From the NCBI GenBank assembly GCA_016794585.1, contig JAEUJM010000017.1, forward strand, positions 1 through 64,000: a stretch of DNA of 64,000 nt, in the 5' to 3' direction. The stretch comes from Acidimicrobiales bacterium (GTDB taxonomy: Bacteria; Actinomycetota; Acidimicrobiia; Acidimicrobiales; DATDAH01). Below, piece by piece: positions 6,628 through 46,398 of this stretch. The position numbers were made by a program, and so were the translations under genes. The notes beneath the pieces are model-generated. The model was not told the origin of the DNA, ran no database searches, and saw only the letters and a program-made list of their open reading frames with translations. Within the stretch, counting starts at the first letter, position 1; each line of letters opens with the position of its first letter.

Positions 6628-6694
6628 GGGGACCCCCCTGTCGATCGTCCGGTCACCCGCAGGCGGCGGGCGATCGGGTGAGTGTAGGAACGTT

Positions 6695-6760
6695 TACGCT
6701 GCGCAGCGGAGCGGAGCTGCCGCAGGGACGAACCGGATCCCGAAGGGGCGCCGACGAAGG
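6695..6760 (+). repeat. dispersed 66-bp element in the 5' leader of the acyl-CoA dehydrogenase gene
   Basis: This copy matches the reverse complement of 34259-34324 without gaps, with 10 mismatches in 66 counted by hand. It starts TACGCTGCGCAGCGGAGCGG and ends CCGACGAAGG, running into AGG to make a GAAGGAGG Shine-Dalgarno 10 nt before the ATG. Inside, CCC-GAA-GGG replaces the GGC-GAA-GCC of the other copy, so the stem is kept by paired changes. It may be a mobile leader or a structured RNA element. The initial TACGCT also resembles a -10 hexamer. Confidence 0.75.
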
Positions 6761-6773
6761 AGGCGCAAGGCAG

Positions 6774-7949
6774 ATGGATTTCGACGTGGCGCCCGACGAC
6801 GACCCTCGGCGGCTCGCGGTGCGGTCCTGGCTGGCCGAGCACCCGGACCCGTCGGGCGCCCAGTTGGCCGAGGCGGGCTACGTGGCCCCCCATTGGCCCG
6901 AGCCCTTTGGCCTCGACGCCGACCCCATCCACCAGCTGATCATCGACGAGGAGCTCCGGGCGGCGAAGGTGCGGCGGCCGGAGAACCCCATCGGCATCGG
7001 CTGGGCCGGTCCGACCATCCTCCACGGCGGCACGGACGAGCAGCAGCGCCGCTACCTCCCCCACCTGCTGTCGGGCGAGGACCTCTGGTGCCAGCTCTTC
7101 AGCGAGCCGGGCGCAGGGTCGGACCTCGCCGGCCTCGGCACCCGGGCGGTCCGTGACGGCGACGAGTACGTGGTCAACGGCCAGAAGATCTGGACGTCGC
7201 TCGGCCACGTGGCCCGGTACGGCATCCTCATCGCCCGCACCAACCCGGACGCCCCGAAGCAGAAGGGCGTGTCCTACCTGATCTGCCCCATGGACACCCC
7301 GGGCATCGAGGTGCGTCCCATCGTCGAGATGACGGGCCTGCACCTGTTCAACGAGGTGTTCTTCACCGACGTGCGCATCCCCGTCGAGAATCTCGTGGGC
7401 GACGAGAACGAGGGCTGGTCCCTGGCGAAGGTCACGCTCGGCAACGAACGCGTGAGTCTCTCGAGCCCGGGTGCGCTGTGGGGCCGCGGTCCGACCGCCG
7501 ACGACCTGCTCGACCTCGTCCGCGATCGCGGCGGCTGCGCCGACCCGATCGTGCGTCAGCGCCTCGCCCGCCTGCACACCGAGTCCGAGCTGCTGCGCCT
7601 CATCCGCCTACGCACGGTCAGCGCCCGCATCAAGGGCGAGCAACCCGGCCCTGAGTCGTCGATCCGAAAGGTGCTCGCCGACGAGCACGGCCAGCACATC
7701 ATGGGCCTGGCCAAGGACCTCGCGGGCACCGCGGGCCTGCTCAGCGACGCCGGGCCCATGGGTGCGCCGGTCGACCTCTGGGAGTACGGATTCTTGTTCG
7801 CTCCGGCGCTGACCGTCGGCGGGGGCACGGGAGAGGTGCAGCGCAACATCCTCGGCGAGCGGGTGCTGGGCCTGCCCCACGACATCGACGTCGAGGCCAA
7901 CCAGACCTGGGCCGAGACGCGCTCCCTCGTCGGCCGCGGCGCCGGCTGA
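6774..7949 (+). CDS. acyl-CoA dehydrogenase
   Basis: 391-residue FAD-dependent acyl-CoA dehydrogenase. Seen: LWCQLFSEPGAGSDLAGL (the FAD/substrate-binding signature), VNGQKIWTSLGHVARYGIL, LFNEVFFTDVRIPVENLVG, and C-terminal VGGGTGEVQRNILGERVLGLP. The family introduces the trans-2,3 double bond into acyl-CoA and passes electrons to ETF. The start is fixed by GAAGGAGG 10 nt upstream, contributed by the dispersed 66-bp element. Seven bases separate its stop from the next gene, so the two are probably cotranscribed. The chain-length class is not determinable. Confidence 0.88.
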   Translation: MDFDVAPDDDPRRLAVRSWLAEHPDPSGAQLAEAGYVAPHWPEPFGLDADPIHQLIIDEELRAAKVRRPENPIGIGWAGPTILHGGTDEQQRRYLPHLLSGEDLWCQLFSEPGAGSDLAGLGTRAVRDGDEYVVNGQKIWTSLGHVARYGILIARTNPDAPKQKGVSYLICPMDTPGIEVRPIVEMTGLHLFNEVFFTDVRIPVENLVGDENEGWSLAKVTLGNERVSLSSPGALWGRGPTADDLLDLVRDRGGCADPIVRQRLARLHTESELLRLIRLRTVSARIKGEQPGPESSIRKVLADEHGQHIMGLAKDLAGTAGLLSDAGPMGAPVDLWEYGFLFAPALTVGGGTGEVQRNILGERVLGLPHDIDVEANQTWAETRSLVGRGAG

Positions 7950-33490: not shown

Positions 33491-34243
33491 TCAGGAGTTG
33501 AGGATGGTGAGGGCGCGCTCGGCCAGTTCGGGGCGGCAGATGAGCAGGTCGGGCAGGTACACGTCTTCCTGGTTGTAGAGGAGGGGCGACCCGTCGAGCC
33601 GCGAGGTGTGCAGCCCGGCGGCGGCGGCGACGGCCACCGGGGCGCACGAGTCCCACTCGTACTGGCCGCCCGAGTGGGCGTAGATGTCGACCTCGCCCTG
33701 GACCACGGCCATGGCCTTGGCCCCGGCCGAGCCCATCTCCACGAGCACGCCGTCGAGGGCCTCGGCGAGCTGCTGCGCCGCCGCCGGCGGACGGGTACGG
33801 CTCACCACGAGGCGAGGGGGACCGTCCACGGCAGGGGCGAGCGGGGGCGGCACCTCGGTGCTGAGGGTGACGCCCTGCGCCGGCAGGGCCACGGCCCCGG
33901 CGATGGGGCTGCCGCCTTCGACGAGCGCCACGTGCACGGCCCAGTCGGTCCGGGGCACCTCGCTGAACTCCCGGGTGCCGTCGAGGGGGTCGACGATCCA
34001 GACCCGGGAAGCCGAGAGCCGGGCGTGATCGTCCTTTCCCTCCTCAGAGAGCACGGCATCGGCGGGGGCGGCGTCGGCCAGGCCGGCCATGAGCAGCTCG
34101 TGCGCCTGGCGGTCGCCCTCGGCCTTGAGCGCGGCCGGCGTCTCTCCGGCGGCGGTGAGCCGGTCGCGCAGGGCGACGAGCAGCTCGCCCGCCTCGGTGG
34201 CCAACCGGTGGGCGAGGGCGTGGTCAGCGGCGGTAGCAGGCAT
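33491..34243 (-). CDS. cysQ: 3'(2'),5'-bisphosphate nucleotidase (CysQ-like, IMPase superfamily)
   Basis: 250 residues. Metal-binding signatures of the FIG superfamily: LSEEGKDD, VWIVDPLDGTREFSE, and C-terminal EWDSCAPVAVAAAAGLHTS. The REF after DPLDGT favours CysQ over inositol phosphatases. It removes the 3' phosphate of PAP/PAPS, recycling the product of sulfate activation; adjacency to cysD-cysN-cysC supports this. The start is set by GAAGGAGG 12 nt upstream, which is the end of a tandemly repeated leader element. Confidence 0.86.
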   Translation of the reverse strand: MPATAADHALAHRLATEAGELLVALRDRLTAAGETPAALKAEGDRQAHELLMAGLADAAPADAVLSEEGKDDHARLSASRVWIVDPLDGTREFSEVPRTDWAVHVALVEGGSPIAGAVALPAQGVTLSTEVPPPLAPAVDGPPRLVVSRTRPPAAAQQLAEALDGVLVEMGSAGAKAMAVVQGEVDIYAHSGGQYEWDSCAPVAVAAAAGLHTSRLDGSPLLYNQEDVYLPDLLICRPELAERALTILNS

Positions 34244-34258
34244 GTTGGCTATGTCCCT

Positions 34259-34324
34259 CCTTCGTCGGGACGGCTTCGCCATCCGGTTCATCGGTGCGGC
34301 TGCTCCGCTCCGCTGCGCAGCGTA
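34259..34324 (-). repeat. 66-bp leader element, copy adjacent to cysQ
   Basis: Read on the minus strand it starts TACGCTGCGCAGCGGAGCGG, contains GAACCGGATGGC-GAA-GCC (a 7-bp stem with a GAA loop, counting GGATGGC and GCCGTCC) and ends CCGACGAAGG, passing into the cysQ Shine-Dalgarno. Identical to the next copy and about 85% identical to 6695-6760. Confidence 0.8.
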
Positions 34325-34328
34325 CGGT

Positions 34329-34394
34329 CCTTCGTCGGGACGGCTTCGCCATCCGGTTCATCGGTGCGGCTGCTCCGCTCCGCTGCGCAGCGTA
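34329..34394 (-). repeat. 66-bp leader element, second tandem copy
   Basis: All 66 bases are the same as the copy at 34259, displaced by exactly 70 bp. It is not next to a start codon and lacks the final AGG, so it carries no Shine-Dalgarno. The exact identity implies recent duplication or gene conversion. Confidence 0.8.
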
Positions 34395-34403
34395 GGGATC
34401 CGC

Positions 34404-34444
34404 GGGGCCGTCGTTGCCATCCGGTTCATCAGCCCCTCTGCTCG
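34404..34444 (-). repeat. degenerate third copy of the leader element
   Basis: Retains the central 15-mer GATGAACCGGATGGC on the minus strand and scattered flanking matches; the hairpin loop is changed to AACGACG. It suggests an older array that was partly renewed by the two identical copies. Confidence 0.5.
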
Positions 34445-34502
34445 GCCCGATGGCGCGGTCGTGAATCCCCATCGCGTTGGTCAGGAATTCCGGCCCTCAG
34501 AT

Positions 34503-34508
34503 TAGGCT
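34503..34508 (+). promoter_or_regulatory. -10-like TAGGCT before cysD
   Basis: TAGGCT, 10 nt before the ATG at 34519, with TTGGTC 20 nt further upstream as a weak -35. No Shine-Dalgarno: leaderless start, in contrast with the long repeat-bearing leader of the divergent cysQ. Confidence 0.5.
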
Positions 34509-34518
34509 GTGCCCCCGC

Positions 34519-35424
34519 ATGCACTACGAGCTCTCCCACCTGCGCGCCCTCGAGGCCGAGGCCATCCACATCATGCGGGAGGTCGGCGCCGAATTCGAGC
34601 GCCCCGTCCTGCTGTTCTCGGGTGGCAAGGACTCGATCGTCATGCTCCGCCTGGCGGAGAAGGCGTTCTGGCCGTGCCCCCTGCCCTTCCCGGTGATGCA
34701 CGTCGACACCGGCCACAACTTCGACGAGGTGATCGCCTTCCGGGACAAGCGGGTCGCCGAGCTCGGCGCCCGCCTCGTGGTGGCCTCCGTGCAGGAGTCG
34801 ATCGACTCCGGTCGGGTCCGTGAGGAGACCGGCCCCCGCGCTTCGCGCAACCGCCTCCAGACCACCACCCTGCTCGACGCCATCGAGACCCACGAGTTCG
34901 ACGCCGCCTTCGGCGGGGCGCGCCGCGACGAGGAGAAGGCCAGGGCCAAGGAGCGGGTGTTCTCGTTCCGGGACGACTTCGGCCAGTGGGACCCGAAGAA
35001 CCAGCGCCCCGAGCTGTGGAACCTCTACAACGGCCGACACCGCAAGGGTGAGCACATCCGGGTCTTCCCGCTGTCGAACTGGACCGAGCTCGACATCTGG
35101 CAGTACATCGCCGAAGAGGGCATCGAGATCCCCGAGATCTACTACGCGCATCGCCGCGAGGTGTTCCGCCGCGACGGCATGCTGCTGGCCGTCGGCCCCT
35201 ACGTCACGCTCGCCGAGGACGAGGAGCCGTTCGAGATGGTCGTCCGCTATCGCACCGTCGGCGACGCCTCGTGCACGGGTGCGGTCGAGTCCAGCGCCGA
35301 CACCATCGACAAGGTGATCGCCGAGGTGGCCGCCACCCGTATCACCGAGCGCGGCGCCACCCGCGCCGACGACCGGGTCTCCGAGGCCGCCATGGAAGAC
35401 CGCAAGCGCGAGGGGTACTTCTAG
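34519..35424 (+). CDS. cysD: sulfate adenylyltransferase subunit 2
   Basis: 301 residues, normal length. PP-loop ATP pyrophosphatase motif FSGGKDS (33-39), then HVDTGHNFDEVIAFRD, TTTLLDAIETHEFDAAFGGARRDEEKARAKERVFSFRD, and PLSNWTELDIWQYI. With CysN it makes adenosine 5'-phosphosulfate (APS) from ATP and sulfate, with energy from GTP. Two bases separate its stop codon from the cysN start, so the two are one operon. Confidence 0.95.
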   Translation: MHYELSHLRALEAEAIHIMREVGAEFERPVLLFSGGKDSIVMLRLAEKAFWPCPLPFPVMHVDTGHNFDEVIAFRDKRVAELGARLVVASVQESIDSGRVREETGPRASRNRLQTTTLLDAIETHEFDAAFGGARRDEEKARAKERVFSFRDDFGQWDPKNQRPELWNLYNGRHRKGEHIRVFPLSNWTELDIWQYIAEEGIEIPEIYYAHRREVFRRDGMLLAVGPYVTLAEDEEPFEMVVRYRTVGDASCTGAVESSADTIDKVIAEVAATRITERGATRADDRVSEAAMEDRKREGYF

Positions 35425-44814: not shown

Positions 44815-46398
44815 TCAGGGGACGCCGGTGACGACCTCGCAGCTCTGGGCGATGTCCGTGCCGGTCTGGCCGGCGCAGCTGTCCCGGTTGGTGCCGCCGA
44901 CCATGCGGTCGTTGCCGGCGCCGCCCTGGATGCCGTCGTTGCCGCTGCCGCCGCTGAGCTGGTCGTCGCCGTTGCCGCCGAGCACCGCATCGGCGCCCTT
45001 GCCGGTGTTGACGGTGTCGTCACCGCCGCCGGCGTTGACCAAGTCGAGGCCGTTGCCGCCGGTGACGGTGTCGTCGCCTCGGCCGCTGCGGACCGTGTCG
45101 GAGCCGTCGCCGGCGTTGATGGTGTCGTCGCCGTCACCGCCTTCGATCTCGTCCTTGCCGATGTAGCCGGTGATGGTGTCGCCGCCGCCGAGGCCACAGA
45201 TGACGTCGCCGCCCCCGAGGCCGTCGATGGTGTCGGCCGCGCCGGTCCCCACGATCACGTCGGCCCCGCCGGTCGGCGTGCCGGCCACGCCGACGAGCAC
45301 GGTGGCGGGCTCACCGTCGCAGGTGGTGCTGGACGGGTCGAGCAGGAGCCGCCCGAGGCGTGTCGTGCCGCTGCTCGTGTACCAGAGGTTGCCGTCGGGA
45401 CCGACGGTGATGTCCAGCGGCTGGCTCGTAGACGACACGCCGGCAGGGTCGACGAACTTCGTCATCGCTCCGGTCGGGGTGACCCGCACGATCATGTTGG
45501 AGGCGTAGGAGGTGAACCAGAGGTTGCCGTCAGGGCCCGAGGTCAGGCCCGACGGACTGCCGATCTCGAAGTCCGCGTCCCCGAAGGTGGTGATCGAGGC
45601 GGCGATGTCAGCGGCGTCGGGGTCGAGGCGGCCGATTCGATGGTTGAACTGGTTGGTGTACCAGAGGTTCCCGTCGGGCCCGGTCACGATCTCGTAGGGG
45701 CCGTCGCTCGACGAAGGGCCGCCGGGGTCGGCGAAGGTGGTGATGACGCCAGCGGGGGTGATGCGCCCGATCCGGTCGCTGACCGAGTTCGTGTACCAGA
45801 GGTTGCCGTCGGGACCAGCGGTGATGCGGAAGGGACCGTTCGTCGACGCCGTGCCCCCGGGGTCGGCGAAGGTGGTGATGGTTGCCGCCACGTTGGGGGC
45901 GTCCGGGTCGAGGCGGCCGATGCGGTTGTTGCCCTGGTTCACGTACCAGATGTTGCCGTCGGGACCGGCGGCGATGCCGTCGGGGATGCTCGTCGAGGCC
46001 GTGCCCGCCGGGTCGGCGAAGGTGGTGATCACGCCGGCCGTGGTGATGCGTCCGATGCGGTTGTTGCCCGGGTTGGTGAACCAGAGGTTGCCGTCGGGCC
46101 CGGCCACGATGTCGGCCGGTTCGTTCGTGGACGAGCTGCCGTTGGGGTCGGCGAACGAGGTGATGACGCCGGCGGGGGTGATGCGCCCGATGCGGTCGGT
46201 GTCGGGGTCGGTGAACCAGAGGTTGCCGTCCGGCCCGGGCGTGATCGAGTACACGTCCTCGATGGTCGCCCCGGGGTCGGCGAAGGTCGTGATGGGCGCC
46301 GGCACCGTCGCCGCCGCGGCAGGCGGGACGGAGGCGACGACGACGCCGAGCGGGGCGGTCAGGAGGACGAGGGCCGAAGCGGCACGACGGAGGTGCAT
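44815..46398 (-). CDS. secreted NHL/Vgb-like beta-propeller with C-terminal RTX calcium-binding repeats
   Basis: 527 residues. Signal peptide 1-30 (MHLRRAASALVLLTAPLGVV). Residues about 30-345 hold seven or so repeats of the form GPDGNLWFTNPGNNRIGRIT, the virginiamycin-lyase/NHL propeller blade. Residues about 375-510 hold RTX-type GGxGxD nonapeptides (GGNGDDQLSGGSGNDGIQGG), which bind calcium outside the cell. The end has two Cys (DSCAG, AQSCE). GGAGG precedes the ATG. A lyase function is not implied: the propeller match is structural. Likely a surface or matrix protein. Confidence 0.8.
   Translation of the reverse strand: MHLRRAASALVLLTAPLGVVVASVPPAAAATVPAPITTFADPGATIEDVYSITPGPDGNLWFTDPDTDRIGRITPAGVITSFADPNGSSSTNEPADIVAGPDGNLWFTNPGNNRIGRITTAGVITTFADPAGTASTSIPDGIAAGPDGNIWYVNQGNNRIGRLDPDAPNVAATITTFADPGGTASTNGPFRITAGPDGNLWYTNSVSDRIGRITPAGVITTFADPGGPSSSDGPYEIVTGPDGNLWYTNQFNHRIGRLDPDAADIAASITTFGDADFEIGSPSGLTSGPDGNLWFTSYASNMIVRVTPTGAMTKFVDPAGVSSTSQPLDITVGPDGNLWYTSSGTTRLGRLLLDPSSTTCDGEPATVLVGVAGTPTGGADVIVGTGAADTIDGLGGGDVICGLGGGDTITGYIGKDEIEGGDGDDTINAGDGSDTVRSGRGDDTVTGGNGLDLVNAGGGDDTVNTGKGADAVLGGNGDDQLSGGSGNDGIQGGAGNDRMVGGTNRDSCAGQTGTDIAQSCEVVTGVP

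Follow-up and report, generated by a model that had tools for sequence, protein, structure and literature searches.

The window, the whole 64,000-nucleotide stretch analyzed here, contains the divergent genes cysQ and cysD, separated by a spacer of 275 nt. A tandem array on the minus strand occupies ~190 nt of this spacer, leaving a remainder of ~85 nt that is similar to the closest relative. The features of the locus, together with a second site in the window, are given below; bit scores refer to R1, a covariance model built from 17 copies of the repeated element, and to R2, a combined model.

33491-34243, minus strand: cysQ, encoding an inositol-phosphatase-family protein (Pfam PF00459, 4.9e-33), downstream of the array
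34247-34326, minus strand: complete gene-proximal copy (R1 93 bits; R2 59.6 bits)
34328-34397, minus strand: second unit, matching 34258-34327 at 69/70 positions (R1 67.7 bits at 34326-34396)
34405-34446, minus strand: third, decayed copy, 76% identical over 42 nt
34224-34472, minus strand: 82-codon open frame spanning all three copies, its final codons overlapping the cysQ start by 20 nt
34499-34504, minus strand: TAATCT, possible -10 (TANNNT type) for cysQ, read from sequence
34519-35424, plus strand: cysD, encoding a PAPS-reductase-domain protein, divergent neighbor (Pfam PF01507, 2e-45)
6693-6772, plus strand: second family site, a single copy (R1 85.5 bits; R2 62.9 bits)

TRF reported a single array at 34258-34430, with 2.5 copies of a 70-bp period and a score of 276; apart from coding repeats near 45-46 kb, no array in the window is stronger. 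Those coding repeats comprise ~135-bp tandem repeats with a 285-bp higher unit at 45613-46238, probably from a coding beta-propeller-type repeat gene; a further set of repeats with a 27-bp period at 44893-45244 probably encodes a glycine/aspartate-rich repeat protein. A preliminary description of the locus had placed two copies, identical over 66 bp, exactly 70 bp apart. The spacing held; the extent of identity had to be corrected, as units 34258-34327 and 34328-34397 are near-identical over 70 bp with one difference (99%). The degraded third copy reported alongside them was borne out and retains GATGAACCGGATGGC at 34416-34430. All three copies carry the exact core, which elsewhere in the window has at least two mismatches.

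Read toward cysQ, the gene-proximal copy consists of P1 (GCTGC/GCAGC), GATGAACCGGAT, P2 (GGC-GAA-GCC) and P3 (GTCCC-gacgaagga-GGGAC). P3 includes a Shine-Dalgarno sequence, and the copy ends 3 nt before the cysQ ATG, terminating in GGAGGGACATAGCCAAC-ATG as no other array copy does; GGAGGGAC ahead of an ATG is likewise confined to the cysQ-proximal copy. The second unit is truncated in the P3 loop and lacks both the 3' arm of P3 and the Shine-Dalgarno sequence. This confirmed the earlier observation that only the gene-proximal copy has a Shine-Dalgarno end, an arrangement seen again in arrays with a period of 67-70 bp. A cysQ transcript from the candidate -10 would contain the array as its leader; no sigma-70 consensus promoter was found at the cysQ-cysD locus. 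The possible -10 elements of cysQ (TAATCT, minus strand) and cysD (TAGGCT, plus strand) overlap at 34499-34508, and the two divergent promoters may therefore interfere. In the closest relative, G017 (CysD 88% identical), cysQ looks leaderless (TAGGGT-AGCCGG-ATG, again from the sequence itself), and relatives keeping the divergent cysQ-cysD pair lack the array.

The core was also found elsewhere in the same genome, with flanks in common. R1 identified 82 copies at E<0.01 in the 5.49-Mb draft genome (51 contigs). An unbiased R1 scan of 563 kb recovered the listed copies in that stretch, indicating that the copy list is close to complete. At the second site in the window, 1 nt separates the copy from the start codon of a gene for an acyl-CoA dehydrogenase (6774-7949; Pfam). 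Three copies (L035, L149 and L154) appear inside long called genes, where in-frame insertion or a wrong gene call is possible. Searches of genome and viral contig collections, from which this genome was possibly left out, returned for the exact core pattern single, chance-like matches in unrelated bacteria. The array is not a leader specific to cysQ but belongs to a genome-wide family of ~80 copies. Because this dispersed family adjoins unrelated genes (proteasome prcBA, dnaX-ybaB and an acyl-CoA dehydrogenase), the element carries no sulfur-specific information.

Compensatory changes across copies support three helices, P1 (GCTGC/GCAGC), P2 (GGC-GAA-GCC) and P3 (GTCCC/GGGAC). Over the three helices, 98.6% of cells were paired and the covariation score was 0.385 versus 0.150 for shuffled alignments (0/500); RNAalifold recovered the same helices with no structure supplied. 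Covariation across two families of the order gave 0.637 versus 0.145 shuffled (0/500). P2 occurs as GGC/GCC, GCC/GGC and CCC/GGG, variants that keep pairing and alter the encoded amino acids, indicating stronger constraint on the fold than on the peptide. The GAA loop of P2 is invariant in the A1 copies, and the Shine-Dalgarno sequence occupies the P3 loop and 3' arm. Copies in this genome keep GA on both sides of the P3 loop, a pattern that would allow tandem G-A pairs. Folding of single sequences gave weak z-scores (-1.0 to -2.5), and the structure thus rests on covariation. A strand test comparing G-U with A-C combinations gave 57 versus 13 in a large alignment, mostly from one P1 pair and with the alignment fitted to the model.

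To describe placement, genes were called with a simple codon-usage caller (92.7% coding), and positions were counted over 66 copies. The 3' end lies at a co-directional start codon in 27 of the 66 (8.6% of random intergenic positions; p ~1.5e-12) and falls on an opposing gene's stop codon in 14 (1.4% of random intergenic positions; p ~4e-13), p-values that, like those for reading frame below, treat related copies as independent and thereby overstate independence. About one third of copies sit at other distances or within genes. In operons, the intergenic spacer is the element itself. An RTGA motif marks the upstream stop at 13 of 17 clean operonic copies, compared to a 37% background (p 0.001), and nine of 12 RTGA junctions contain a mini-ORF of 29-35 amino acids that shares 4 nt with the stop of the upstream gene and 4 nt with the start of the downstream one (for example, MILEAAERSGAAALDEPDPEGAPTEEVQGE). 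Spacings were congruent to 1 mod 3 in 12/14 cases (p 8e-5), with 82, 85, 88, 97 and 100 all keeping frame. The cysQ site departs from this clean coupling geometry, its open frame overlapping the start by 20 nt and not 4, and the RTGA criterion is inapplicable there because the genes are divergent.

Comparison with relatives revealed filled and empty sites. The prcB-prcA gap is 2 nt in most of 29 relatives examined, usually with RTGA, versus 91 nt here; these 91 nt are the element, with GTGAACAT before and GTGAGCAT after it. Similarly, dnaX and ybaB overlap by 4 nt in several relatives, and here the element lies between both genes. Over the whole copy set, target-site duplication was not significant (p 0.14). 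At L140 (2066-2147; G000 C47:138265-138346 in this genome), AGGTCCTGTCGTGA and AGGTCCTGTCATGA flank the copy; this 14-bp near-perfect duplication around a gene junction is the best single case, and L140 and prcB-prcA are suggestive of target duplications. We infer that mobility caused the dispersal. RAYT was considered as the mover and rejected, the Y1/RAYT transposase (PF01797) being absent from this genome (G000), G016 and G968; G875 has one. No known transposase was identified for the family in this genome, G016 or G968.

Twelve arrays of the element were detected in the genome. Identity within arrays is mostly 0.85-1.00 (0.67-0.74 in three arrays), compared to a mean of 0.72 between loci, which supports the local duplication proposed in the preliminary description. 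In arrays of 67-70 bp period (the window, L038, L022, L051, L054 and L138), upstream copies stop in the P3 loop, suggesting slippage at the P3 hairpin.

This genome is the sole member of its family in our comparison set. Weak R1 matches led to G016, a member of a different family within the order, in which the core matched 64 times versus two in a control and arrays have a period of ~90 bp. Searching with R2 uncovered family expansions in G968 and G875, neither of which had been used in building the model; their copies have P1 in common, and several again abut stop codons. Besides this genome, three genomes of the order thus carry expanded homologous families. The G016, G968 and G875 loci L214-L233 and L264-L278 form dense arrays with different P1/P3 sequences and a 3' end of CAATGT, often followed by a stop codon belonging to the opposing gene. 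Elsewhere in the order, most genomes gave no match or a few weak ones in a search that scored few candidates per genome, and the spread across the order appears patchy, as roughly measured. Weak R1 matches in G005, G006, G015 and G037 were discounted as lying in coding sequence or resembling chance.

We consider it likely, with a probability of roughly 0.72, that the array arose by local tandem expansion from an intercistronic, MIRU-like element of ~80 nt that is mobile and dispersed through the genome. Such an element would spread by copying itself to the boundaries of genes, above all to RTGA stop/start junctions and to sites abutting a stop or start codon. Its 3'-end Shine-Dalgarno sequence and, in operons, its short frame overlapping both neighbors would hand ribosomes to the next gene, and insertion would be tolerated because the element brings both. 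At cysQ, whose counterpart in the closest relative looks leaderless, it would have inserted next to the start codon. The array, grown by local duplication and most likely by slippage at stable hairpins, would now make up most of a ~250-nt cysQ leader, with the last copy supplying the ribosome-binding site, and may affect cysQ expression.

Precedents for this arrangement come from MIRUs. The senX3-regX3 locus contains MIRUs of 77 bp and 53 bp (PMC4213456); parA is leaderless in M. marinum, and in M. bovis a MIRU makes up the 77-nt 5' UTR of its orthologue (PMC4128351); and MIRUs are described as apparently mobile, with insertion at start codons and -4 coupling (PMC12548453). Our element shares with them its shortness, RTGA junctions, a mini-ORF overlapping its neighbors, a Shine-Dalgarno sequence near the 3' end and tandem arrays mixing full and shortened units. 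It differs in being longer, in a different sequence with three covarying hairpins and no detectable homology, in often lying antisense on opposing stop codons and in a host from another order of the phylum. MIRU-type repeats, searched with a sequence pattern, occurred in one genus of the phylum, with at most 16 in any genome, and showed the same junction geometry as the element; R1 does not match the repeats found in this way. Descent from MIRUs is not supported; that the element works like a MIRU is. MIRUs underlie tuberculosis typing, and by likeness to these typing loci it is plausible that copy number at cysQ differs between strains, as was initially suggested. More tentatively, the family may represent an undescribed class of structured mobile elements whose fold is better conserved than their sequence across families of this order, and which target gene boundaries through a folded single strand, use no known transposase and evolved the MIRU coupling architecture independently; we regard this as possible and somewhat short of an even chance.

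The strongest competing reading, which we consider unlikely, is a REP/BIME-type element: a structured repeat that forms hairpins as single-stranded DNA, is spread by a transposase and is tolerated next to stop codons, with start coupling secondary. REP/BIME sequences are dispersed, hairpin-forming intergenic repeats beside stop codons, often clustered, and our element resembles them in all these respects. In four genomes copies abut opposing stop codons exactly, and the copies in G016 and G968 mostly lack the Shine-Dalgarno sequence; both observations fit this reading, as do the invariant P2 GAA loops of the A1 copies, given the use of a GCGAAGC-type mini-hairpin for the robust stability it has in DNA (PMC4686876). 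The element might then end transcription or protect mRNA 3' ends, but no T-run terminator-like site was found at the cysQ locus. Moreover, the element is larger, with three hairpins and, at starts, a Shine-Dalgarno sequence and mini-ORF; RAYT/Y1 transposase is absent from three of the four rich genomes, including its own, and the frame-preserving mini-ORFs and RTGA junctions would be left unexplained. ERIC-, BOX- and Correia-type miniature elements are likewise non-autonomous, dispersed and intergenic; unlike these, our element showed no terminal inverted repeat pairing its ends, and it is placed exactly with respect to codons.

A riboswitch, attenuator or other cis-regulatory RNA controlling cysQ in response to a sulfur metabolite would account for a structured leader whose P3 hairpin, immediately upstream of cysQ, holds the ribosome-binding site. 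It is very improbable given ~80 copies near unrelated genes, many antisense to the neighboring gene, and the element's absence before cysQ in relatives; an Rfam search of 33900-34900 returned no match above the gathering score and one chance microRNA match far below threshold. For the same reasons, a family beside unrelated genes and relatives' cysQ-cysD pairs without the element, the proposed tuning of cysQ relative to cysD-cysN-cysC specifically is unsupported. Least probable of all is an assembly artefact, conceivable in a draft of 51 contigs and contradicted by differences among the copies (one substitution, one decayed copy), by the short unit and by the detection of twelve arrays.

A local expansion of a MIRU-like element would have two implications. 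We know of no mechanism for MIRU movement, and a second, unrelated family of MIRU architecture outside mycobacteria, with a covarying fold and clear empty and filled sites, would offer a route to what a shared mechanism needs. The element also illustrates how leaderless or overlapping genes may gain leaders and spacers with the start signal kept.
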